49,687 bases of DNA from Terriglobia bacterium (GTDB taxonomy: Bacteria; Acidobacteriota; Terriglobia; Bryobacterales; Bryobacteraceae): assembly GCA_025350105.1 (NCBI GenBank), contig JANXYJ010000066.1, forward strand, positions 1 through 49,687. Direction: 5' to 3'. The notes under the pieces are model-generated. The model searched no databases. It was not told where the DNA came from and saw only the letters and a program-made list of their open reading frames with translations. The stretch's first letter is position 1. Each line of letters starts with the position of its first letter. Positions 29,097 through 39,495 of the stretch are shown in pieces. The translations under genes and the position numbers were made by a program.

Positions 29097-29292
29097 AAGA
29101 ACCGCTCGCTAAGAAGAAACGGAGAACCCCAAGCCCCGATTTCCTAATAAGCAGTATTCCATTCGGCAGGGAGGTTGCTTGCCGGGCGAGTCGCGAAAGT
29201 GGGAGCCGCGCTCATTTTTTGGGCGGGAATGTTTTGGCCGAAAGAGCCCTCGGGCCCCTCCGCCGAAGTTGATATACTGGAGTATCAATCGT

Positions 29293-30330
29293 ATGTCGAC
29301 TCCCGAACTCACCCTTCCGTTCCATGGTTCGCAATCCAACCCGAAAAGTGATCAGGGCAAGCGCATTATCCTCTTGAGGCCACGCGGGTTCTGCGCCGGA
29401 GTGGTGCGTGCGATCGACGTCGTGAAAATTGCTTTGAACATGTACGGCGCGCCGATTTACGTGCGCAAGGAAATTGTCCACAATAAGCATGTCGTTGATG
29501 AGTTACGCGCAGCCGGTGCGATCTTCGTTGAGGAGCTTACCGAAGTCCCCAAAGGCGCGCGAGCCATTTTCAGCGCCCACGGCGTAGCCCCTTCGGTGCG
29601 TACCGAAGCCCAGCAACGGGAGCTGCAAGTGATTGACGCTACTTGCCCGTTGGTCACCAAGGTGCACATTGAGGCGGTCAAGTTCGCGCGGCAGAACTAT
29701 ACCATCGTTCTGATTGGTCATAAGGATCACGACGAAGTCACCGGAACCCTGGGCGAAGCTCCCGAATGCACGGTACTCGTTTCCACCGTTACCGACGTCG
29801 ATCAACTTGTGGTGAAAGATCCCGAACGTGTATCGTTTATCACGCAAACTACTTTGAGCTTGGACGAAACCCGCGACATCGTCGGCCGGCTGCGGGAACG
29901 GTTCCCCAAAATCAAAGGCCCGGCCGCCCAGGACATTTGTTACGCCACTGAAAATAGGCAGCTTGCGGTAAAAGCTGTGGCGCCGCTGTGCCACTTGTTA
30001 TTAGTAGTGGGTTCGCAAAACAGTTCCAATTCGCGGCGCCTGGTTGAGGTTTGCGAAAAAGAAGGCGTTCCTTCGCACCTGGTGGACGACGCCAGCGAAG
30101 TGCGCCCGGAGTGGTTGGAAGGAAAAGACATTGTCGCGGTGACGGCGGGTGCGTCGGCTCCGGAAAATCTGGTACAGGAATTGATCGATGCGCTCCGCGC
30201 CCGTGGCTACGGGACCTTGGAAGAAGTTGAAATTAAAGAAGAGGATGTCCGTTTCAATTTGCCATCGGAACTCACCCGCAGCGCTCAGCTGCACACAATT
30301 TCCACGGCAACCAACACAGCGAGGGTATGA
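29293..30330 (+). CDS. ispH: 4-hydroxy-3-methylbut-2-enyl diphosphate reductase
   Basis: A 345-residue IspH, the last enzyme of the MEP pathway, making isopentenyl and dimethylallyl diphosphate. The three iron-sulphur ligands are visible: Cys34 in RGFCAGVVRAID, Cys118 in DATCPLVTK and Cys216 in DICYATENRQ. GHKDHDEVTGT and the C-terminal TAGASAPENLV also match. ATG 29293 has GGAG about 10 nt upstream. An extended -10-like TGATATACT (29270-29278) lies just before it. Its ATGA overlap with shc places precursor supply at the head of the hopanoid operon. Confidence 0.95.
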   Translation: MSTPELTLPFHGSQSNPKSDQGKRIILLRPRGFCAGVVRAIDVVKIALNMYGAPIYVRKEIVHNKHVVDELRAAGAIFVEELTEVPKGARAIFSAHGVAPSVRTEAQQRELQVIDATCPLVTKVHIEAVKFARQNYTIVLIGHKDHDEVTGTLGEAPECTVLVSTVTDVDQLVVKDPERVSFITQTTLSLDETRDIVGRLRERFPKIKGPAAQDICYATENRQLAVKAVAPLCHLLLVVGSQNSSNSRRLVEVCEKEGVPSHLVDDASEVRPEWLEGKDIVAVTAGASAPENLVQELIDALRARGYGTLEEVEIKEEDVRFNLPSELTRSAQLHTISTATNTARV

Positions 30331-32267
30331 GTCCCAGTCTCCAAATTATTGATTCGTTCGTGGCGACTTGCTCCCAGGCTCTGAAACGAGGGGCGGGGTT
30401 TCTACTCGACCAACAGCACCGCGACGGGTACTGGTGGGCCGATCTGACCGCCGATTCCACCTTGGAATCGGATTTCATTCTGGTCGAACTCTGGCGCCAT
30501 TCGCCGGTGAACGGCGTGTGGAATCCTCCCACACGCGACCTGGTGGAGAAGGCCAAGCAGGCGATCTTGGCACGGCAGTTGCCGGATGGCGGGTTTAATA
30601 TCTACGCCGAAGGGCCTTCGGAGGTCAATGCGACTATTAAGGCTTACACCGCATTGAAGCTGGCGGGACTGAGCCAGGATCATCCAGCAATGGCGAAGGC
30701 CCGCGAACGGGTGCATACGCTGGGGGGGCTGCAGGCGGCCAACAGCTACGTCAAAATCAACCTGAGCATCTTCGGTTTGTTTCCGCGCGAGCACACGCCA
30801 TCGGTTCCGCCGGAGCTGATGTTTTTCGGCAAGTGGATTTACGAAATGTCCTCCTGGACCCGCGCCATCGTGATTCCGTTGTCGATTGTCCACGCCATGA
30901 ACCCCATGCGGCCGGTGCCGGCGGGCTTCACGGTGAACGAATTGTTTGTGCCGGGCGTGCGGCCCAATCTGGATTACCCCGATAACGAAGGCTTCTTCAG
31001 TTGGCGGCACTTCTTTTTGAAGCTGGACAAAGCGCTGAAGTTTTGGGAGCGCCATCCGATTGACTGGGTTCGCGAAAAGGCGATCCGCAAAGCCGAACAG
31101 TGGATGCTGGAACGCACGGTGAATTCGGACGGCGTCGGTGCCATCTATCCGCCCATGATGTACGTCATCATGGCGCTGGATCTATTGGGCTATCCGAGCG
31201 ATCATCCGCACGTGGTCGAAGCCCAAAAGCAGTTTCTGAATCTGCTGGTCAATGACGAACGCGGGTTCTATTTTCAGCCTTGCTTCTCGGTGGTCTGGGA
31301 TACGGGCATTGCCGCTTACGCTTTGGGTGAATCGGGCATCGTTCCGCAATCGGTGTTGACAAAAGCGGTGGATTGGCTGTTGACCAAGGAAGTGCGGCGC
31401 AAAGGCGACTGGAGCATCAAACGGCCCCATCTTGAGCCTTCCGGCTGGTACTTCGAATTCGCTAACGAATTCTATCCCGATATCGACGATACGGCGCAAG
31501 TGCTGTTGGCGCTGGCCCGCGGCAAAGGATCCGACAAAGCCAAGCAGGACGCCTGCATGAAGCGAGCCGTGGAGTGGCTGCTTTCGATGCAATCGAAAGA
31601 CGGCGGCTGGGCTGCGTTTGACGTCGACAACAACTGGGATTTCTTGAGCTACGTTCCGTTTGCCGATCACAACGCGATGCTCGATCCCACCTGCCCGGAT
31701 ATCACGGGCCGGGTGCTGGAAGCCTTGTCAGCCTGCGGCGTGCCGCATCACTATCCATCGGTCCGGCGCGGCGTGGATTGTTTGATCCGCACCCAGGAAG
31801 CCGATGGCAGCTGGTACGGCCGCTGGGGCGTGAACTATATTTACGGAACGTTTTTGGCTTTGCGCGGTTTGCAAGCCGCCGGCGAAAGCGACCGGGAAGC
31901 GCATATTCTGCGCGCCGGGGAATGGCTGCGGTCGATTCAAAATGGCGATGGCGGCTGGGGCGAAAGCTGCGCCAGCTATGACAAGAACACCTATGTAGCG
32001 GCCGCCAGCACGCCTTCGCAAACGGCGTGGGCGGTTTTAGGCTTGCTGGCCAGCGGGGACCACATCAGCAGCAGCGTGCAAAAGGGTATTGAATTTTTGA
32101 TCGAAACGCAAAGGCCCGACGGCGGTTGGGACGAAAAGCTGTCCACCGGCACCGGGTTCCCGCGCGTGTTCTACTTGCAGTATCACTACTATCGACATTC
32201 GTTTCCGGTGCTGGCCTTTTCGGCGTATCTGGCGGCGAGAAACGCGAATGGAGTCAAGCACACATGA
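30327..32267 (+). CDS. shc: Squalene-hopene cyclase
   Basis: A 646-residue membrane-associated triterpene cyclase that converts squalene to hopene. The protonating DxDD motif is D385-I-D-D388 in YPDIDDTAQVL. Several QW motifs are present (QQHRDGYWWADL, QSKDGGWAAFD, QEADGSWYGRWG, QNGDGGWGES, QRPDGGWDEKL). The length is normal. The ATG overlaps the ispH stop (ATGA), and its own stop overlaps the hpnH start in the same way. Confidence 0.97.
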   Translation: MSPSLQIIDSFVATCSQALKRGAGFLLDQQHRDGYWWADLTADSTLESDFILVELWRHSPVNGVWNPPTRDLVEKAKQAILARQLPDGGFNIYAEGPSEVNATIKAYTALKLAGLSQDHPAMAKARERVHTLGGLQAANSYVKINLSIFGLFPREHTPSVPPELMFFGKWIYEMSSWTRAIVIPLSIVHAMNPMRPVPAGFTVNELFVPGVRPNLDYPDNEGFFSWRHFFLKLDKALKFWERHPIDWVREKAIRKAEQWMLERTVNSDGVGAIYPPMMYVIMALDLLGYPSDHPHVVEAQKQFLNLLVNDERGFYFQPCFSVVWDTGIAAYALGESGIVPQSVLTKAVDWLLTKEVRRKGDWSIKRPHLEPSGWYFEFANEFYPDIDDTAQVLLALARGKGSDKAKQDACMKRAVEWLLSMQSKDGGWAAFDVDNNWDFLSYVPFADHNAMLDPTCPDITGRVLEALSACGVPHHYPSVRRGVDCLIRTQEADGSWYGRWGVNYIYGTFLALRGLQAAGESDREAHILRAGEWLRSIQNGDGGWGESCASYDKNTYVAAASTPSQTAWAVLGLLASGDHISSSVQKGIEFLIETQRPDGGWDEKLSTGTGFPRVFYLQYHYYRHSFPVLAFSAYLAARNANGVKHT

Positions 32268-33379
32268 GAGTTCCCCTGTCCCAGGTGGCCGACATGGCCA
32301 CCTACATTGCCAAGAACAAGCTGCGACCGAAAGCGGAATGGCAGCAGAATCTTGCCGGCAAGGAGGATTCGGCGAACCCGTTCAAGATTGTCCATACGCA
32401 AATTCCCTCCATGCGAGCCGAACGCAAGCCGCATCCGATGATCAACAAGCGTTTCCCGCTGGTGATGATGCTGGAGCCCTTGCATGCCTGCAACCTGACC
32501 TGCACCGGCTGTGGACGCATTCGCGAGTACGAGGACAGCATCCGCGACCGGGTATCGCTGGAGGATTGCCTGAAGGCGGTGGACGAATGCGGCGCGCCGA
32601 TGGTTTCCATCTGTGGCGGCGAGCCTCTCTTGCTGCCCGATATCGGCCAGATGTGCGCCGAAATCCTGAAGCGGGGCCGGTACATTCAGCTGTGCACCAA
32701 CGGCATGTTTCTGCGCAAGCGTTTGAAGGATTTTACGCCTCATCCCAACCTGGTGTTCAACGTCCATTTGGACGGCATGGAAAAGAACCACGATATCGCG
32801 GTGGAACGCCCAGGCGTTTTCAAGGAAGCCATCGATGGCATCCGGGCCGCCAAGGCAGCGGGCTATAAGGTGTTTAGCAACACCACGGTCTATAAAGAGA
32901 CCGATATGAACGAGATCTGGCAGCTGTTCGAATTTCTGGAAACCATGAAGGTGGACGGGCATTCGATTTCGCCGGGCTATGGCTACTCCGCCGTAAACGA
33001 CCGCGAGATGTTTTTGACGGTGGACGACACCCACGAAAAATTCGCACGCATAAAGGAAATGGCCAAGCGCTTCCCGCTGGTTTCCTCGCCCATCTACATG
33101 GATTTCCTGAAAGGCGAACGGGATTTGCCCTGCACCGCCTGGGGCATGCCCACTTATAATGTGAAGGGCTGGAAGGGCCCGTGTTATTTGATCACCGACG
33201 GGCACTACAAAACGTTCGAGGATCTGATGACCAAAACGCCGTGGGAAAACTACGGGACCGGTAACGATCCGCGCTGCCAGGATTGCATGGTGCATTGCGG
33301 CTACGAACCTTCGGCGGCTTATGGGGTGAATTCCAAGCTGTCGGATCCGTTTAAGCAGTTGGGCTGGCTGTTGAGTTAA
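32264..33379 (+). CDS. hpnH: Adenosyl-hopene transferase, radical SAM
   Basis: A 371-residue radical-SAM enzyme that joins the 5'-deoxyadenosyl group to hopene, giving adenosylhopane, the first step to C35 hopanoids. The cluster motif is Cys76-x3-Cys80-x2-Cys83 (CNLTCTGC), and SICGGEPLLLPDI follows. The C-terminal part carries CYLITDGHYKTFEDL and CQDCMVHCGYE, typical of HpnH. The start is ATG 32264, overlapping the shc stop; an in-frame start at 32126 lies inside shc and was rejected. Confidence 0.96.
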   Translation: MRVPLSQVADMATYIAKNKLRPKAEWQQNLAGKEDSANPFKIVHTQIPSMRAERKPHPMINKRFPLVMMLEPLHACNLTCTGCGRIREYEDSIRDRVSLEDCLKAVDECGAPMVSICGGEPLLLPDIGQMCAEILKRGRYIQLCTNGMFLRKRLKDFTPHPNLVFNVHLDGMEKNHDIAVERPGVFKEAIDGIRAAKAAGYKVFSNTTVYKETDMNEIWQLFEFLETMKVDGHSISPGYGYSAVNDREMFLTVDDTHEKFARIKEMAKRFPLVSSPIYMDFLKGERDLPCTAWGMPTYNVKGWKGPCYLITDGHYKTFEDLMTKTPWENYGTGNDPRCQDCMVHCGYEPSAAYGVNSKLSDPFKQLGWLLS

Positions 33380-33404: not shown

Positions 33405-34442
33405 ATGAAGCCGGTATTGGTGACGGGTGCGACGGGGTTTGTGGGCTGGCACGTCGCCCGTAATTTACTGGAACGCGCAGTGCCGGTACGGGTGATGGCG
33501 CGGAATCCGCAGGCTAGCGCGCAGGCGCTGCGACAGTTGCCGGGCGCCGAGGTTGTGCAGGGGGATTTGCGCGACGCCGATTCGGTGGGGCGCGCCGTTG
33601 CGGGATGCGGCGTGGTGTATCACGTTGCCGCCGACTATCGGTTATGGGTGCCGAAGCCGGAGGAGATGTACCGTTCAAACGTGGACGGGACGCGGAATTT
33701 GCTGCAGGCGGCACGGATTCATGGAGTAGAGAAGGTGGTTTATACCAGTACGGTGGGGTGCATTGGATTTCCAGACGGCGGAGTGGGCAATGAAGAGACT
33801 CCGGTGAGTTTGGAGTTGATGAAGGGTCCGTATAAGCGCAGCAAGTTCATGGCGGAGCAGGTGGCGCTGGAGTTTGCCGGGCTGGAGTTTACCGGGAAAA
33901 GCCTGCCGGTGACCGTTGTGAATCCGACGACGCCGGTAGGGGATCATGATTTTCGTCCCACGCCCACCGGCAAGATGATTGTGGATTTTTTGCGTGGGGC
34001 GATGCCGGCGTTTCTGGATACTGGCCTGAACATTGTGGATGTGGACGATGTGGCCAAGGGACATTTGGCGGCGTGCGAACGCGGGCGGGTAGGCGAACGG
34101 TACATTTTAGGCGGCGAGAATTTGACCTTGCAGCAGATTCTAGGCAAGCTGGCTGCGGCCAGCGGCAGGAAAGCCCCGGGAATACGGGTGCCCTACGCGG
34201 TGGCATACGCGGCCGGTGCGGTCTCCACGGCCTGGGCGGGCGTGACCGGCAAGGAACCGCTGGCACCACTGGACGCGGTGCGGATGGCGCGGCAGAAGAT
34301 GTGGGCGAGCAGCGATAAAGCGGCCCGGGAATTAGGATACACGGCACGGCCGGCGGCGGAAGCACTGGCCAGGGCGGCGGAATGGTTTCAGGCAAACGGA
34401 TATCGTGAAAACATGGCTGCTGGTCGCCGCCGAACGGCGTGA
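33405..34442 (+). CDS. hpnA: Hopanoid-associated sugar epimerase
   Basis: A 345-residue short-chain dehydrogenase/epimerase of the extended type. It has VLVTGATGFVGWHVARNL at the N-terminus and the YxxxK active site in GPYKRSKFMAEQ. It is the HpnA seen in most hopanoid clusters; its reaction is unproven, though a role in modifying the sugar-derived side chain has been proposed. It starts 25 bp after hpnH and its 3' end overlaps hpnG by 38 bp. Confidence 0.9.
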   Translation: MKPVLVTGATGFVGWHVARNLLERAVPVRVMARNPQASAQALRQLPGAEVVQGDLRDADSVGRAVAGCGVVYHVAADYRLWVPKPEEMYRSNVDGTRNLLQAARIHGVEKVVYTSTVGCIGFPDGGVGNEETPVSLELMKGPYKRSKFMAEQVALEFAGLEFTGKSLPVTVVNPTTPVGDHDFRPTPTGKMIVDFLRGAMPAFLDTGLNIVDVDDVAKGHLAACERGRVGERYILGGENLTLQQILGKLAAASGRKAPGIRVPYAVAYAAGAVSTAWAGVTGKEPLAPLDAVRMARQKMWASSDKAARELGYTARPAAEALARAAEWFQANGYRENMAAGRRRTA

Positions 34443-35115
34443 ATTTGACGGAATCCGGAAACGGATGGGAAACGTAACTGGTTTGAGTTGGGCAAGTTTG
34501 AGCGGGCGCGGCACGAAACTTGCGGGTGTGAAGTTTGCAATGCAGGCCCAGCACCAAGGTGCGCGTTGGTGGATGATCGCCAACGGACCGGGTCGGGAAT
34601 TGGTGGAACAGGCAATGCCGGAAACGGCTAAAGATTGGGTGAAAAAGAACGTGAGCGGCATCGTCAGCACCGGGTTGTGCGGGGCACTGGACCCGGCATT
34701 GCGCACGGGCGATATCGTGGTTGCGGGTGATGGTCTGGTGAGCACGCGTCGTTTTGTAAAAGGTGCCATGCATTCGCTCGACCGCGTGGCTGTGACCTCG
34801 AAGGAAAAGCGGATTTTGCGCAATCAGACGGGAGCGATTGCCGTTGATATGGAAACGGCAGCAGTGCGGGAACGCGCCGAAGCCTGGGGCATTCCTTTTC
34901 ATTGCGTGCGAGTGGTTTCCGACAACGCGGGCGAGGATTTGGCGTTGGACTTCAACCGGTTCCGCGACGAGAGAGGCGATTTTTCACGCATCAAGATTGC
35001 GATGGCTGCGCTGTCCAGCCCCCTAAAAGTGCTGCCGCGCCTGATGGAATTTGACAAGAACTGCCGACAAGCGGCGGATACCCTAGGAGAGTTTCTTGCC
35101 GACTGCCAATTCTAG
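34405..35115 (+). CDS. hpnG: Hopanoid-associated phosphorylase/nucleosidase
   Basis: A 236-residue member of the nucleoside phosphorylase/MTA-SAH nucleosidase superfamily. It removes adenine from adenosylhopane to give ribosylhopane or its phosphate. Motifs: VSTGLCGALDPALRTGDIVV and IAVDMETAAVRERAEAWG, the latter carrying the ribose-binding Glu. The start is GTG at 34405 inside hpnA. Its last 20 bases overlap the following dehydrogenase gene. Confidence 0.93.
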   Translation: MKTWLLVAAERREFDGIRKRMGNVTGLSWASLSGRGTKLAGVKFAMQAQHQGARWWMIANGPGRELVEQAMPETAKDWVKKNVSGIVSTGLCGALDPALRTGDIVVAGDGLVSTRRFVKGAMHSLDRVAVTSKEKRILRNQTGAIAVDMETAAVRERAEAWGIPFHCVRVVSDNAGEDLALDFNRFRDERGDFSRIKIAMAALSSPLKVLPRLMEFDKNCRQAADTLGEFLADCQF

Positions 35116-36238
35116 TGTCCTGCCGTCCATCGACTCAGCCTCGACGGCGCTCGCCGTGGTGTCGTCCCCAGCAGCGGTGCCTGAAAAAATGTCGGCAGCC
35201 GTTTATAAGGGTGCGGGCCGGGTGGAGGTGGATTCCATTCCGGTGCCAGCGGTTGGGCGCGGCGAAGTCCTGATTCGCGTGGAGAGCTGCGGAATTTGTC
35301 CGACGGATCTGAAAAAGATTTCCTACGACCTGCTGCCCGCTCCGCGCATCTTCGGCCATGAAACGGCGGGCGTAATTGCAGCGGTGGGCGCGGGCGTCGG
35401 CAAATACACCATCGGCGACCGCGTGATTGTGTTCCATCACATTCCCTGCGGCGATTGTTTTTATTGCACACGCAAGTTGTACGCCCAGTGTCCGGTTTAC
35501 AAGAAAGTCGGCGTGACGGCGGGCTATGAGCCGGCGGGTGGCGGATTTTCTCAATATGTCCGCGTGATGGATTGGATCGTGGAGGGCGGGATTGAAAAGA
35601 TTCCCGATGGCGTTTCCTTCGACGCGGCATCGTTTGTGGAACCGGTGAACACCTGCGTGAAGGCGGTGGAGCAGATCGCACCGATGGCGGGCGACGTGGT
35701 GGCGATTCTGGGGCAGGGTCCCATTGGTTTGATCTTCACCATGATTCTGGCGCGCGAAAACGTAACAATTCTTGCTACCGATACGTTTGAATCCCGGCGC
35801 CAGTTGGCGCGCGAGCTAGGAGCACAGGAAAGCTTCGATCCGCGGGACGAGGCTTTGAACCAGAGCATCCGTAAAATGACGGACGGGCGCGGAGCCGATA
35901 TCGTGATCGTTGCGGCTTCCGCCAAAGGGATTGTGGAGCAAGCTGTGGCGATTTCCCGGCCCGGCGCCAAGGTCCTGCTATTTGCGCAAACTTCGCATCA
36001 GGAGCGAGTCGAAGTATCGGGCGCCGACATCTGTGTAGGAGAGCGGATCTTGTGCGGCTCCTATAGCGCGTCTGTCGATTGGCAGAAAAAGTCCGCGGAG
36101 CTGGTATTTTCCGGGGCTTTGCCGGTAGAAAAGCTGATTTCGCACCGCGTGGCGTTGCGCGACATCCGGGAAGGGCTGGAGCAGGCGTTGCATCCTGGCC
36201 CAGAATCGTTGAAGATCGTAGTACAGCCTCAGAGGTGA
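35096..36238 (+). CDS. Zinc polyol-dehydrogenase-like MDR protein 1 in hopanoid operon
   Basis: A 380-residue zinc-dependent medium-chain dehydrogenase, closest in style to sorbitol/threonine dehydrogenases. From the TTG start: catalytic-zinc Cys68 in GICPTDLKK, His88-Glu89 in FGHETAG, the structural-zinc loop CGDCFYCTRKLYAQC, and NAD motif LGQGPIGL. TTG 35096 has AGGAG 6 nt upstream; ATG at 35189 (MSAAVYKG) is where most relatives would begin. It overlaps hpnG by 20 nt and the next gene by 1 nt. No published role in hopanoid synthesis is known to me. By position it could reduce the ribosylhopane aldehyde to bacteriohopanetetrol (inference). Confidence 0.85.
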   Translation: MPTANSSVLPSIDSASTALAVVSSPAAVPEKMSAAVYKGAGRVEVDSIPVPAVGRGEVLIRVESCGICPTDLKKISYDLLPAPRIFGHETAGVIAAVGAGVGKYTIGDRVIVFHHIPCGDCFYCTRKLYAQCPVYKKVGVTAGYEPAGGGFSQYVRVMDWIVEGGIEKIPDGVSFDAASFVEPVNTCVKAVEQIAPMAGDVVAILGQGPIGLIFTMILARENVTILATDTFESRRQLARELGAQESFDPRDEALNQSIRKMTDGRGADIVIVAASAKGIVEQAVAISRPGAKVLLFAQTSHQERVEVSGADICVGERILCGSYSASVDWQKKSAELVFSGALPVEKLISHRVALRDIREGLEQALHPGPESLKIVVQPQR

Positions 36239-37308
36239 TGCTAAGAGTGACTGAGCAGATGACAGCCGCCGTCTTGTACGGCAAAGAGGACCTGCAGATT
36301 GAAACTGTAGATGTCCCGACCATTGGTGCCGGCGATGTATTGGTGCGCGTGCGCGCCGCGCTCACCTGTGGAACGGACGTGAAGGTATTCAAGCGGGGAT
36401 ATCATGCGCGGATGATTGTGCCGCCCGCGCTGTTCGGCCATGAACTGGCCGGCGACATCGTAGCCCTTGGCAAAAATGTAACGCTGGGCAAGAACGCCCG
36501 GGGCTTCAAAATTGGCGACCGCGTGATGGCGGCCAATTCGGCTCCCTGCGGCGTGTGTTTCTATTGCCAGCGCCATCAGGAAAATTTGTGCCAGGATCTG
36601 TTGTTCAACAACGGAGCCTACGCCGAATACATTCGCATCCCGGAAAGAATCGTGCAGCGCAATTTGCACATTCTGGACGATCATATTGGCTACCAGGACG
36701 CGGCGCTGGCCGAACCACTCGCCTGCGTGCTGCGCGGGCTGGAAGAAAGCAACCTGCGGCCGGGCGATACCATCGCCATTATCGGGCTGGGTCCGATTGG
36801 CATGATGTTTGTGCGTTTGGCCAAAGCCATGTACGGCGCGCGCGTGATTGCGTTGGGCCGGCGCAAAGCGCAACTGGAACGGGCCACCCGCATGGGCGCG
36901 GACGAAGTGATCCTGAATTCCGATAAGGCCGACGTGGTCTCTGAAGTAAAACGCTTGACCGGCGGACGGGGCGCGGATGTGGTGGTGGAAGCGGTGGGTC
37001 TGCCGGAGTTGTGGCAGTTGGCCACGCACATCATCCGGCGCGGCGGCGTGGTGAACTTCTTCGGCGGCTGCGCCACGGGCACCGAAGTTCGCCTGGATAC
37101 GCAACTGCTGCACTATTCTGAAATCACCTGCAAAGCCAGTTTCCATCACACACCGGAATTGATTAAGAAAGCGCTGGAAGCAGTGGGCCGCGGCTATGTC
37201 ACCGCCAAGGATTTCGTCAATGGCGTGGAGCCGTTGACCAATCTGCTGGAAGTGATGCAGCACCTGATGAGTCACAATGGCCATTTGAAGACAGCCATTA
37301 TTCCGTAA
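36238..37308 (+). CDS. Zinc polyol-dehydrogenase-like MDR protein 2 in hopanoid operon
   Basis: A 356-residue zinc medium-chain dehydrogenase, a distant relative of its upstream neighbour rather than a recent copy. Cys44 (TCGTDVKVFKRG), His68-Glu69 (FGHELAG), the structural-zinc loop CGVCFYCQRHQENLC and NAD motif GLGPIGMMF are all intact. ATG 36238 shares a base with the preceding stop (TGATG); ATG 36259 (MTAAVLYG) is equally plausible. hpnC follows 16 bp later. Together with MDR1 it could form a hetero-oligomer or catalyse two successive redox steps on the hopanoid side chain; this is inferred from position alone. Confidence 0.85.
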   Translation: MLRVTEQMTAAVLYGKEDLQIETVDVPTIGAGDVLVRVRAALTCGTDVKVFKRGYHARMIVPPALFGHELAGDIVALGKNVTLGKNARGFKIGDRVMAANSAPCGVCFYCQRHQENLCQDLLFNNGAYAEYIRIPERIVQRNLHILDDHIGYQDAALAEPLACVLRGLEESNLRPGDTIAIIGLGPIGMMFVRLAKAMYGARVIALGRRKAQLERATRMGADEVILNSDKADVVSEVKRLTGGRGADVVVEAVGLPELWQLATHIIRRGGVVNFFGGCATGTEVRLDTQLLHYSEITCKASFHHTPELIKKALEAVGRGYVTAKDFVNGVEPLTNLLEVMQHLMSHNGHLKTAIIP

Positions 37309-37324
37309 GAGCGTTTTCAACCTT

Positions 37325-38239
37325 GTGTATTTAGCGCCTGCTGAATTCGTCGCCTCCCCGGATGCGCTGAATCGCGCGTGGGCGCTGGACGAATCTATCG
37401 CCTACACCAAGTGGCTGGCCACGCATCACTACGAAAACTTTCATGTGGTGAGCTTTCTGCTGCCCAAGCATCTGCATCAGGATTTCTATAACGTGTATGC
37501 GTTCTGCCGTTGGGCCGACGATTTGGGCGATGAGATCGGCAATGTCTCCGAGAGCCTGCCTTTGCTCGACTGGTGGCGCGCGGAGTTGCATGCCATGTAT
37601 GCGGGCCAAGCGAAACACCCGGTGTTGGTTGCGTTGCAAGGCACGGCCGCAAAACGGCAACTGCCGATAGAACCGTTTGACCACTTGATCACGGCGTTCA
37701 TTCAGGATCAGACCATCACCCGCTATCAAACGTTCGAGGATGTGTTTCACTACTGCCGTTATTCGGCGAATCCGGTGGGGCGGTTGGTGCTGGGGTTGTG
37801 CGGCTATCACGATGCAGCGCAGCAGGAACTTTCAGACGCCACCTGCACGGCGCTGCAGTTGGCCAATTTCTGGCAGGATGTGACCGTCGATCTGAAGAAA
37901 GATCGCATTTATTTGCCGCTGGATTTACTACACAAACACGGCTATTCGGAAGCGGAACTTTTTGCGCGTCACTTTGACCAACGATTCCGTGGAGCGATGA
38001 CTGAAGCCGTGGAGGTTGCGCAGGCGTTGTTTCTAAAAGGCCTGCCGCTGGCCGATCAGGTGGACAAGCGCCTGGCCATCGATCTGGATTTGTTCAGCAG
38101 AGGCGGTATGCGGGTGCTCGAAAAGATCCGCCAGCAGGGTTACGATGTGCTGCGGGCACGGCCGTCGATTTCCAAAACCGAGCGCGTGGGGATGCTGTTG
38201 GCGTCCGTAACCAAGAGAGTTTTTTCGCGGGCCGCATGA
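37325..38239 (+). CDS. hpnC: Hydroxysqualene synthase
   Basis: A 304-residue class I prenyl-condensing enzyme, converting presqualene diphosphate to hydroxysqualene. The first acidic motif is CRWADDLGDE and the second is FWQDVTVDLKKDRIYLP, whose QDVxVD form separates HpnC from HpnD. HYENFHVVSFLLPKHL near the start is also characteristic. The start is GTG at 37325. It overlaps hpnD by 4 nt (ATGA). Confidence 0.94.
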   Translation: MYLAPAEFVASPDALNRAWALDESIAYTKWLATHHYENFHVVSFLLPKHLHQDFYNVYAFCRWADDLGDEIGNVSESLPLLDWWRAELHAMYAGQAKHPVLVALQGTAAKRQLPIEPFDHLITAFIQDQTITRYQTFEDVFHYCRYSANPVGRLVLGLCGYHDAAQQELSDATCTALQLANFWQDVTVDLKKDRIYLPLDLLHKHGYSEAELFARHFDQRFRGAMTEAVEVAQALFLKGLPLADQVDKRLAIDLDLFSRGGMRVLEKIRQQGYDVLRARPSISKTERVGMLLASVTKRVFSRAA

Positions 38240-39063
38240 CTGTCGCCGAGTCGTACCGATGGTGTGAAGACGTAGCGCGGCAGCAGGCCAAGAACTTCTA
38301 TTACTCATTTCTATTGCTGCCTGCCGGGCAACGCCACGCCATGTGCGCGGTGTATGCGTTCATGCGCTATTGCGATGACCTGAGCGATGACGAAGGAATC
38401 CCCGACCGTGCAGCGGCCATAGCGCGATGGCGCGGGGATCTGGAAATGTCGTTATCGGGCAAGCTAGCCGATCACGCCGTGTGGCCTGCGTTTGCCGACA
38501 CCGTGACGCGCTACAAAATTCCGCACCGATATTTTTTCGACATGATCGACGGCGTGAGTTCCGACCTGGAGCCGCGCGCGCTGCAAACCTTCGACGAGTT
38601 ATACGATTACTGCTATCACGTGGCCAGCGTGGTGGGTTTGGTGATTATTCATATTTTTGGATTCGATTCTGATCAAGCCCCGCTGCTAGCTGAAAAATGC
38701 GGCATTGCGTTTCAGTTGACCAACATCATCCGTGATGTGAAGGAAGACCGCGAGAAGAACCGTGTGTATCTTCCGGCGGAAGATTTTCGGCGGTTTGGTG
38801 TTTCTCCGTCCACGTTTGAGCCGCGCGAGAGTTTCCGCAGCATGCTGGAGTTCGAAGCCAAACGCGCACGCGATTATTACGATCAGGCCAGGCCGCTGAT
38901 CGCCATGGTGCATGCGCGCAGCAGACCGTCATTGCGGGCACTGATTGGGATTTACTCGACGCTGCTGGATCGGATCGTGGCAGCAAACCACGATGTCCTG
39001 AACCAGCGGGTGCGGCTGTCGACCGGGCACAAGCTGTGGATTCTGGTGCGGAGTTGGGTGTAA
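38236..39063 (+). CDS. hpnD: Presqualene diphosphate synthase
   Basis: A 275-residue squalene/phytoene synthase-family enzyme that condenses two farnesyl diphosphates into presqualene diphosphate. The metal-binding motifs are YCDDLSDDE and NIIRDVKEDREKNRVYLP, and NFYYSFLLLP is at the substrate entrance. It is the last gene of the ispH-hpnD operon. The usual next partner, hpnE, does not follow; the next gene is an unrelated small membrane protein 45 bp on. Confidence 0.95.
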   Translation: MTVAESYRWCEDVARQQAKNFYYSFLLLPAGQRHAMCAVYAFMRYCDDLSDDEGIPDRAAAIARWRGDLEMSLSGKLADHAVWPAFADTVTRYKIPHRYFFDMIDGVSSDLEPRALQTFDELYDYCYHVASVVGLVIIHIFGFDSDQAPLLAEKCGIAFQLTNIIRDVKEDREKNRVYLPAEDFRRFGVSPSTFEPRESFRSMLEFEAKRARDYYDQARPLIAMVHARSRPSLRALIGIYSTLLDRIVAANHDVLNQRVRLSTGHKLWILVRSWV

Positions 39064-39108: not shown

Positions 39109-39495
39109 ATGAACTGGAGCTCCATCGGCGCGCTGGTGTTGGCGGTGGCGGTGATGATTGGCGCGTTCGGCGCTCACGCGCTGCAGGGTAGGCTGGACGA
39201 ATACTCGCGCGGCGTTTACGAAACCGGCGTGCTGTATCATTTTTTTCACGCGTTGGGATTGCTGATCGTTTCGTTCCTACCGCGCATCGGGGCTCTTGCA
39301 GCCAAACAAGCCAACTGGATTTGCGCTTTGCTGCTGGTAGGCATTGTGCTGTTTTCGGGAAGCTTGTACGCGCTGGCGATCAGCGGCGTGCGGATGCTGG
39401 GAGCCGTAACGCCATTGGGCGGCGTGGCGTTCATCGCAGCCTGGGTGCTCTTGGGATTCTGTCTCCTGAAGGGAGACCCCGTTAGCCATGAATAA
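39109..39495 (+). CDS. DUF423/YgdD family membrane protein
   Basis: A 128-residue protein with four predicted membrane helices and the DUF423 pattern: GAFGAHALQGRLDEY, a YHFFHALGLL segment, FSGSLYALAISGVRMLGAVTPLGG and FIAAWVLL. The family is widespread and of unknown function. It lies 45 bp after hpnD on the same strand and may be read through from the operon, but DUF423 genes occur in many contexts, so a hopanoid role should not be assumed. Confidence 0.88.
   Translation: MNWSSIGALVLAVAVMIGAFGAHALQGRLDEYSRGVYETGVLYHFFHALGLLIVSFLPRIGALAAKQANWICALLLVGIVLFSGSLYALAISGVRMLGAVTPLGGVAFIAAWVLLGFCLLKGDPVSHE

Follow-up and report, generated by a model that had tools for sequence, protein, structure and literature searches.

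The contig JANXYJ010000066.1 of a Terriglobia bacterium (Bryobacteraceae, assembly GCA_025350105.1), whose 49,687 nucleotides constitute the window analyzed here, carries two adjacent genes for zinc-type medium-chain dehydrogenases/reductases (MDRs), MDR1 (35096..36238, + strand, 380 residues) and MDR2 (36238..37308, + strand, 356 residues), within a run of hopanoid genes. The membership of the pair in hopanoid synthesis at this locus is well supported, and its dedication to hopanoids is highly probable. We propose, with a probability of about one half, that MDR1 and MDR2 form a paired C35-hopanoid set that, across much of the Acidobacteriota, performs NAD/NADPH redox chemistry on the side chain derived from ribose. 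The side chain, rather than the C30 part of the molecule, is the more probable site of action.

The linkage itself was published in 2017, with both genes described as being of unknown function: in acidobacterial hopanoid clusters, ug1 follows hpnA-hpnG and ug2 precedes hpnC (Sinninghe Damste et al. 2017, PMC5462960), which are the positions of MDR1 and MDR2. For ug2, a common annotation is Zn-binding alcohol dehydrogenase, with a length of ~350 residues, in agreement with the type and the length of MDR2, and by its position ug1 would be MDR1. The passages of PMC5462960 consulted give no function for ug1 or ug2 and, unlike the present analysis, neither identify ug1 as a dehydrogenase nor describe a pairing or cofactor types. 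They are also inconsistent about ug2 in subdivision 3 (SD3), which is reported for all SD1 and SD3 (section 16) and as absent from SD3 cluster A (section 13). Searches of the openly licensed literature turned up no mention of the pairing, of the split in cofactors, of how widely the genes are conserved or of an explicit candidate role, nor any other functional proposal for the two genes; most subscription papers fall outside that literature.

Zinc sites and cofactor signatures

Both proteins contain ADH_N and ADH_zinc_N domains above the gathering score, which places them in the zinc-type MDR superfamily, and their predicted folds match solved MDR dehydrogenases. The residues that define the polyol-dehydrogenase-type MDR subfamily, namely the catalytic Cys, His and Glu, the EP-motif Glu and the four Cys that bind the structural zinc, are all present in MDR1 and MDR2. 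Their conservation was followed in 80 named loci, which are the best 80 of at least 562 relatives and thus near kin only (their titles read Bryobacterales, Bryobacteraceae, Solibacter, Terriglobia, Acidobacteria or alike, with one odd label). All eight zinc-site positions are kept in 80/80 loci for MDR1 and in 80/80 best matches for MDR2; a true MDR2 is present in only 72 of these loci, and in the other eight, the best match is probably the MDR1 gene itself. 

The cofactor site lies at the end of the second Rossmann strand, where, in MDR enzymes, an acidic residue is the mark of NAD and arginines are the mark of NADP. In the named loci, MDR1 has Asp at this site in 79/80 cases and Glu in 1/80, and the corresponding MDR2 residues are [GA]R[RKT] in 72/72 loci from which it was recovered. 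In the wider phylum, the residue is acidic in 28/28 fetched MDR1 orthologs (27 Asp and one Glu) and non-acidic in 28/29 MDR2 orthologs, with more diverse MDR2 residues outside the order (VKR, GNR, GKR and similar). By these opposite and conserved signatures, MDR1 is predicted to be NAD(H)-type and MDR2 NADP(H)-type. An earlier reading of the DNA letters (the sequence-only reading) had described all zinc and NAD motifs as intact, which holds for the zinc motifs of both proteins and the NAD motif of MDR1, but not for MDR2, whose motif is NADP-type.

Neither protein corresponds to a known equivalog, as both score below every NCBIfam equivalog cut-off. The nearest models are scyllo-inosose 3-dehydrogenase IolM (NF041097; 150.5 for MDR1 and 164.1 for MDR2 versus a curated 450), the best neighbor of both proteins, and L-threonine 3-dehydrogenase (TIGR00692; 148.1 and 154.6, respectively, versus a curated 458.35). 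Sequence searches of solved structures with MDR1 and MDR2 returned general MDR relatives only. Threonine dehydrogenase, IolM, sorbitol dehydrogenase and ketose reductase 1e3j are ~20–30% identical to the two proteins in alignments, but MDR1 and MDR2 are distinguished by their location in a lipid operon.

Linkage to hopanoid genes in Acidobacteriota

In a sample of 199 genomes drawn evenly from the phylum, in which a gene was considered lacking when no match reached ortholog score, hpnH was found in 50 genomes. MDR1 orthologs are present in 29 genomes, separated from other matches by a clear gap (343.6 versus next 206.2 bits), and MDR2 orthologs in 30 (371.2 versus next 289.7 bits), i.e. the same 29 and G132. 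All 29 MDR1 genomes also carry MDR2 and hpnA over cut-off, and 28 have hpnH; the pair-bearing genome with no hpnH match, G113, contains shc, hpnA and hpnD in the locus of the pair. The orthologs are confined to genomes with hopanoid genes in 29/29 cases for MDR1, with no MDR1 ortholog without hpnA among the 199 genomes, and in 29/30 cases for MDR2, G132 being the exception. Co-occurrence probabilities (2e-19, 5e-34 and 6e-15) take no account of relatedness and do not count as evidence here.

MDR1 adjoins hpnA and/or hpnG in 28/29 phylum genomes (G163 was judged from coordinates only), and MDR2 adjoins hpnC and/or hpnD in 27/29, the window included. The linkage exception is G066, in which the pair lies on a different contig from the hpn genes, with none of them near MDR2; in G163, hpnE is near MDR2. 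The pair is split in 12/29 genomes, the two genes being located on different contigs or ~11 kb to ~860 kb apart. In these split genomes, MDR1 is still found by hpnG in 12/12 and MDR2 before hpnC, by hpnC/hpnD, in 11/12; in the twelfth, G163, hpnE lies ~2 kb from MDR2 according to coordinates only. In family f28, hpnA stands beside MDR1 with no hpnG between them in 7/7 genomes, and in G130, hpnG is kept beside MDR1 and hpnA is located elsewhere. The f28 loci (L075–L078, L082, L084 and L087) read hpnA-MDR1-MDR2 with no room for hpnG, and the HpnG-like matches of these genomes are weak and come from other contigs. In the tree, the branching of the MDR1 clade broadly mirrors that of the MDR2 clade, with some placements on long branches, which is consistent with joint inheritance. 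The sequence-only reading hinged on a conserved linkage of the MDR genes with hpnG/hpnH, and both linkage and co-occurrence proved strong. If the two proteins were general polyol or sugar dehydrogenases hitch-hiking in the operon, as the versatility of the family and the related tandem pairs beside unrelated genes in other genomes would allow, the linkage would be fortuitous; this is improbable, since two findings argue against chance linkage: each member of a split pair is retained in a hopanoid locus of its own, and 0/199 genomes have an MDR1 ortholog but no hpnA.

The window's own order was sampled with 250 genomes and matches at E ≤ 1e-70, which gave hpnH in 228, MDR1 in 242 and MDR2 in 242 genomes; among the 163 genomes that are ≥90% complete and ≤5% contaminated, the counts are 152, 162 and 163, respectively. 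Four MDR1 matches weaker than 1e-100 (G375, G381, G414 and G442) may be fragments, and six such MDR2 matches (G201, G319, G324, G356, G392 and G404) may be fragments or paralogs. Both MDR genes are retained in 20 of the 22 HpnH-negative genomes (G228 and G232 were placed in this set by elimination), with the exceptions of G378 and G440. From these 20 genomes, 11 regions were fetched, and hpnA, hpnG, MDR1 and MDR2 are present in 11/11, with HpnH cut at the contig edge in two. Many HpnH-negative genomes of the order are likely to reflect assembly gaps or an unlinked hpnH. The HpnH matches listed in the order fall mostly into two groups, one at ~1e-125 from model position ~23, the type found in the window, and the other at ~1e-160 over the full length. 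In the named loci, hpnG is found upstream in 74/75 with room for it and hpnA in 69/71, and MDR2 and hpnC are found downstream in 71/71 and 70/70, respectively. One record (L139, CALQCC020000014.1), titled Bordetella parapertussis isolate HRS-HS12-bin-180, bears this acidobacterial hopanoid operon and is most likely a mislabelled metagenome-assembled genome.

Proposed side-chain chemistry and its alternatives

An activity that reduces ribosylhopane to bacteriohopanetetrol (BHT) has been observed in a Methylobacterium cell-free system (Bodlenner et al. 2015, as cited in PMC12583986). It corresponds to the chemistry predicted for the candidate MDR step, but there it was seen in a cell-free system, and the enzyme converting ribosylhopane to BHT was not established as of 2025 (PMC12583986); the accessible parts of PMC5358736 and PMC8537080 contain nothing further on it. 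HpnH and HpnG leave a ribose-derived side chain on the hopane, which would be the likely substrate of MDR1 and MDR2. The combination of NAD+ and NADPH would suit an oxidation of a hydroxyl or hemiacetal together with a carbonyl reduction, in one direction. By its cofactor, MDR2 would be the likelier of the two to catalyze the reduction that yields BHT, and MDR1 would then carry out the companion oxidation. The Methylobacterium activity reportedly used NADPH. A side-chain NAD/NADPH redox pair is the most economical reading, for which we infer the cofactor use, the substrate, the direction and the order of steps. More tentatively, the co-inherited NAD+- and NADPH-using enzymes may drive a one-way redox rearrangement of the ribosylhopane or BHT side chain that supplies the BHT-forming step in these Acidobacteriota or yields a lineage-specific BHT stereoisomer or oxidized derivative. 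In this soil phylum, MDR1 and MDR2 represent a two-gene candidate, with predicted cofactors, for redox chemistry on hopanoid side chains. BHT-type hopanoids serve as biomarkers, and if the pair does make a distinctive isomer, this would matter for the reading of acidobacterial hopanoids in sediments.

Two roles had been suggested for the pair from the sequence. A two-step side-chain redox pair gains support from the near-constant pairing and the opposite cofactor signatures, the steps themselves being only proposed. A role of one or both proteins as the ribosylhopane reductase would agree with the linkage, but it is put in doubt by the ortholog-free hpnH genomes described below, the lack of an equivalog fit, the usual substrates of sorbitol-dehydrogenase-type enzymes and the wider spread of HpnA. 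The identification of one member with the missing reductase is a fair and testable hypothesis, one among several; that either protein reduces ribosylhopane directly is plausible, though less likely than not.

Several observations weigh against the proposed role of the pair, in particular against a simple reading as the BHT reductase. The orthologs are absent from 22/50 hpnH-positive genomes, so the pair lacks the phylum-wide occurrence among hopanoid producers that a common ribosylhopane reductase would have, although other enzymes could replace it there, and hpnA is found in 48/50. The ortholog-free set includes nine f47 genomes, five f32 genomes and G007, in which the absence may be an assembly gap (there, 2.4 kb separate hpnH from the end of its contig). 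Three of the f32 genomes (G096, G123 and G165) have a size of ~3.7 Mb divided between two contigs (of 2.68 and 1.01 Mb in the case of G123), a structure by which we take them to resemble Chloracidobacterium. Chloracidobacterium has been reported to make BHT (PMC5462960), so the ortholog-free genomes probably include a known BHT producer. Conversely, G132 has an MDR2 ortholog without hpnH or hpnA, related NAD/NADP-type tandem pairs are present in G078, G132 and G176 with no hpnH match, and three g200 genomes of the order (93–99% complete) have no HpnH match and keep both MDR genes. In the split genomes, MDR2 stays with squalene genes and away from hpnG, and in G037, the sole acidic case among the fetched MDR2 orthologs of the phylum, the cofactor site is occupied by Asp. 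Finally, secondary alcohols are the usual substrates of enzymes of the sorbitol dehydrogenase type.

Distant relatives could stand in for the orthologs in pair-less genomes. An MDR2-like gene of 272–290 bits is present in all five f32 genomes, and more distant tandem MDR pairs lie outside the hpn loci of G051, G063, G192 and the five f47 genomes inspected (G089, G108, G117, G160 and G184). Such pairs indicate that the MDR pair has an older life outside the hopanoid locus. In G176 (contig C46, locus L246), the tandem pair comes just after polyprenyl-synthase-like and dxs-like open reading frames (ORFs) and shortly before an NAD-kinase-like ORF, as judged by eye. No replacement reductase near hpnG was evident by eye in pair-less genomes at L107, L111, L112, L253 and L254, where no family scan was made. 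With regard to a possible amine route in pair-less genomes, no model named HpnO was listed at E ≤ 1e-90 for the 10 aminotransferase matches scanned, out of 42 from eight genomes.

It is possible, if doubtful, that HpnA reduces ribosylhopane to BHT and that the MDR pair tailors the product, e.g. by an oxidation and re-reduction that invert one side-chain hydroxyl. HpnA (TIGR03466) is likewise hopanoid-linked, NAD(P)-binding and without proven function, but it is of the short-chain dehydrogenase/reductase (SDR) type and commoner in the phylum, its near-ubiquity in hpnH-positive genomes (48/50) being seen with or without the MDR pair; in the seven f28 genomes, where hpnG sits elsewhere, hpnA adjoins MDR1 in every case. 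HpnA has also been proposed for the ribosylhopane step in PMC5462960. However, hpnA is dispensable for BHT in Burkholderia cenocepacia and missing from some BHT producers (evidence cited in PMC5462960), it is lacking in 6/48 alphaproteobacterial hpnH genomes (PMC12583986), and it is absent from the hpnH-positive genomes G007 (with the contig end mentioned above) and G059.

The similarity to IolM, although far below cut-off, would fit an editing of a sugar-like head group by the pair, in the cyclitol ether route with HpnJ and by analogy with inosose dehydrogenases. This is very unlikely and weakened by the distribution of HpnJ: eight pair-bearing genomes, the seven of f28 (G113 with one 185-bit match) and G066, have no convincing HpnJ, so it is not needed for retention of the pair, and HpnJ is over cut-off in five ortholog-free f32 genomes. 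In G103, a ninth genome with the pair, HpnJ is found as two sub-cut-off pieces only. The position of MDR2 beside hpnC and/or hpnD in 27/29 pair-bearing genomes could instead indicate that the pair, or MDR2 alone, serves the synthesis of squalene or of C30 hopanoids. We consider this improbable, as MDR1 keeps to hpnA/hpnG, some shc-bearing genomes have no orthologs of the pair, and a link to HpnE is unsupported by its distribution (absent in 6/7 pair-bearing f28 genomes and present in five ortholog-free f32 genomes). We also know of no squalene step that requires a zinc MDR.

Operon layout and the start of MDR1

ORF and NCBIfam analysis of the window revealed nine closely packed genes on the + strand, ispH-shc-hpnH-hpnA-hpnG-MDR1-MDR2-hpnC-hpnD. 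The run begins with ispH (29179..30330; NF002189, 458 bits versus cut-off 444; the longest ORF is given, with its start unrefined), shc/hpnF for squalene-hopene cyclase (30327..32267; TIGR01507, 665.4 bits, over cut-off) and hpnH for adenosylhopane synthase (32264..33379; TIGR03470, 428.2 bits, over cut-off, with an ATG within a longer ORF). They are followed by hpnA for the hopanoid-associated SDR, or ‘sugar epimerase’ (33405..34442; 457.5 bits, over cut-off), and an hpnG-like nucleosidase/phosphorylase gene (34405..35115; TIGR03468, 124.6 bits, below cut-off 187.1). Downstream of the MDR genes are hpnC (37325..38239; TIGR03464, 346.4 bits, over cut-off) and an hpnD-like gene (38236..39063; TIGR03465, 257.2 bits, below cut-off 278.6). 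The overlaps are 20 nt between hpnG and MDR1 and 1 nt between MDR1 and MDR2, and the hpnC ORF begins 16 nt past MDR2. The ORF positions and family matches bear out what the sequence-only reading had described: two open + strand frames between hpnG and hpnC, at the coordinates used here, with these two overlaps and in a nine-gene run. Chance ORFs or a wrong frame for MDR1 and MDR2 are rejected by the open frames, the family matches and the conservation of the start frame.

MDR2 starts with ATG, and MDR1 with an unusual TTG within the end of hpnG. This start was checked because residues 1–24 of MDR1 are modeled with very low confidence in the predicted structure. Of the 80 related loci, 79 have an hpnG match in range. 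In 77 of these, MDR1 keeps its phase relative to the end of hpnG, although the spacing between that end and the conserved MDR1 body varies; TTG lies exactly 20 nt upstream of the hpnG end in 56, and GGAG or GGGG shortly precedes the start in 68. The TTG start is supported by the phase, the TTG position and the upstream GGAG/GGGG, and MDR1 is probably made in translational coupling with HpnG. A conserved HpnG C-terminus may account for part of the TTG signal, but not for the phase.

The curated HpnG cut-off (187.1) is reached by 0/199 phylum genomes, so HpnG in Acidobacteriota may escape automatic annotation. The hpnE and hpnJ genes of the window's own genome are located on other contigs (C159 and C82, respectively). 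Directly after hpnD lies a DUF423 gene (39109–39495, + strand), a homologue of which follows hpnD in only 1/80 named loci, many of which end early.

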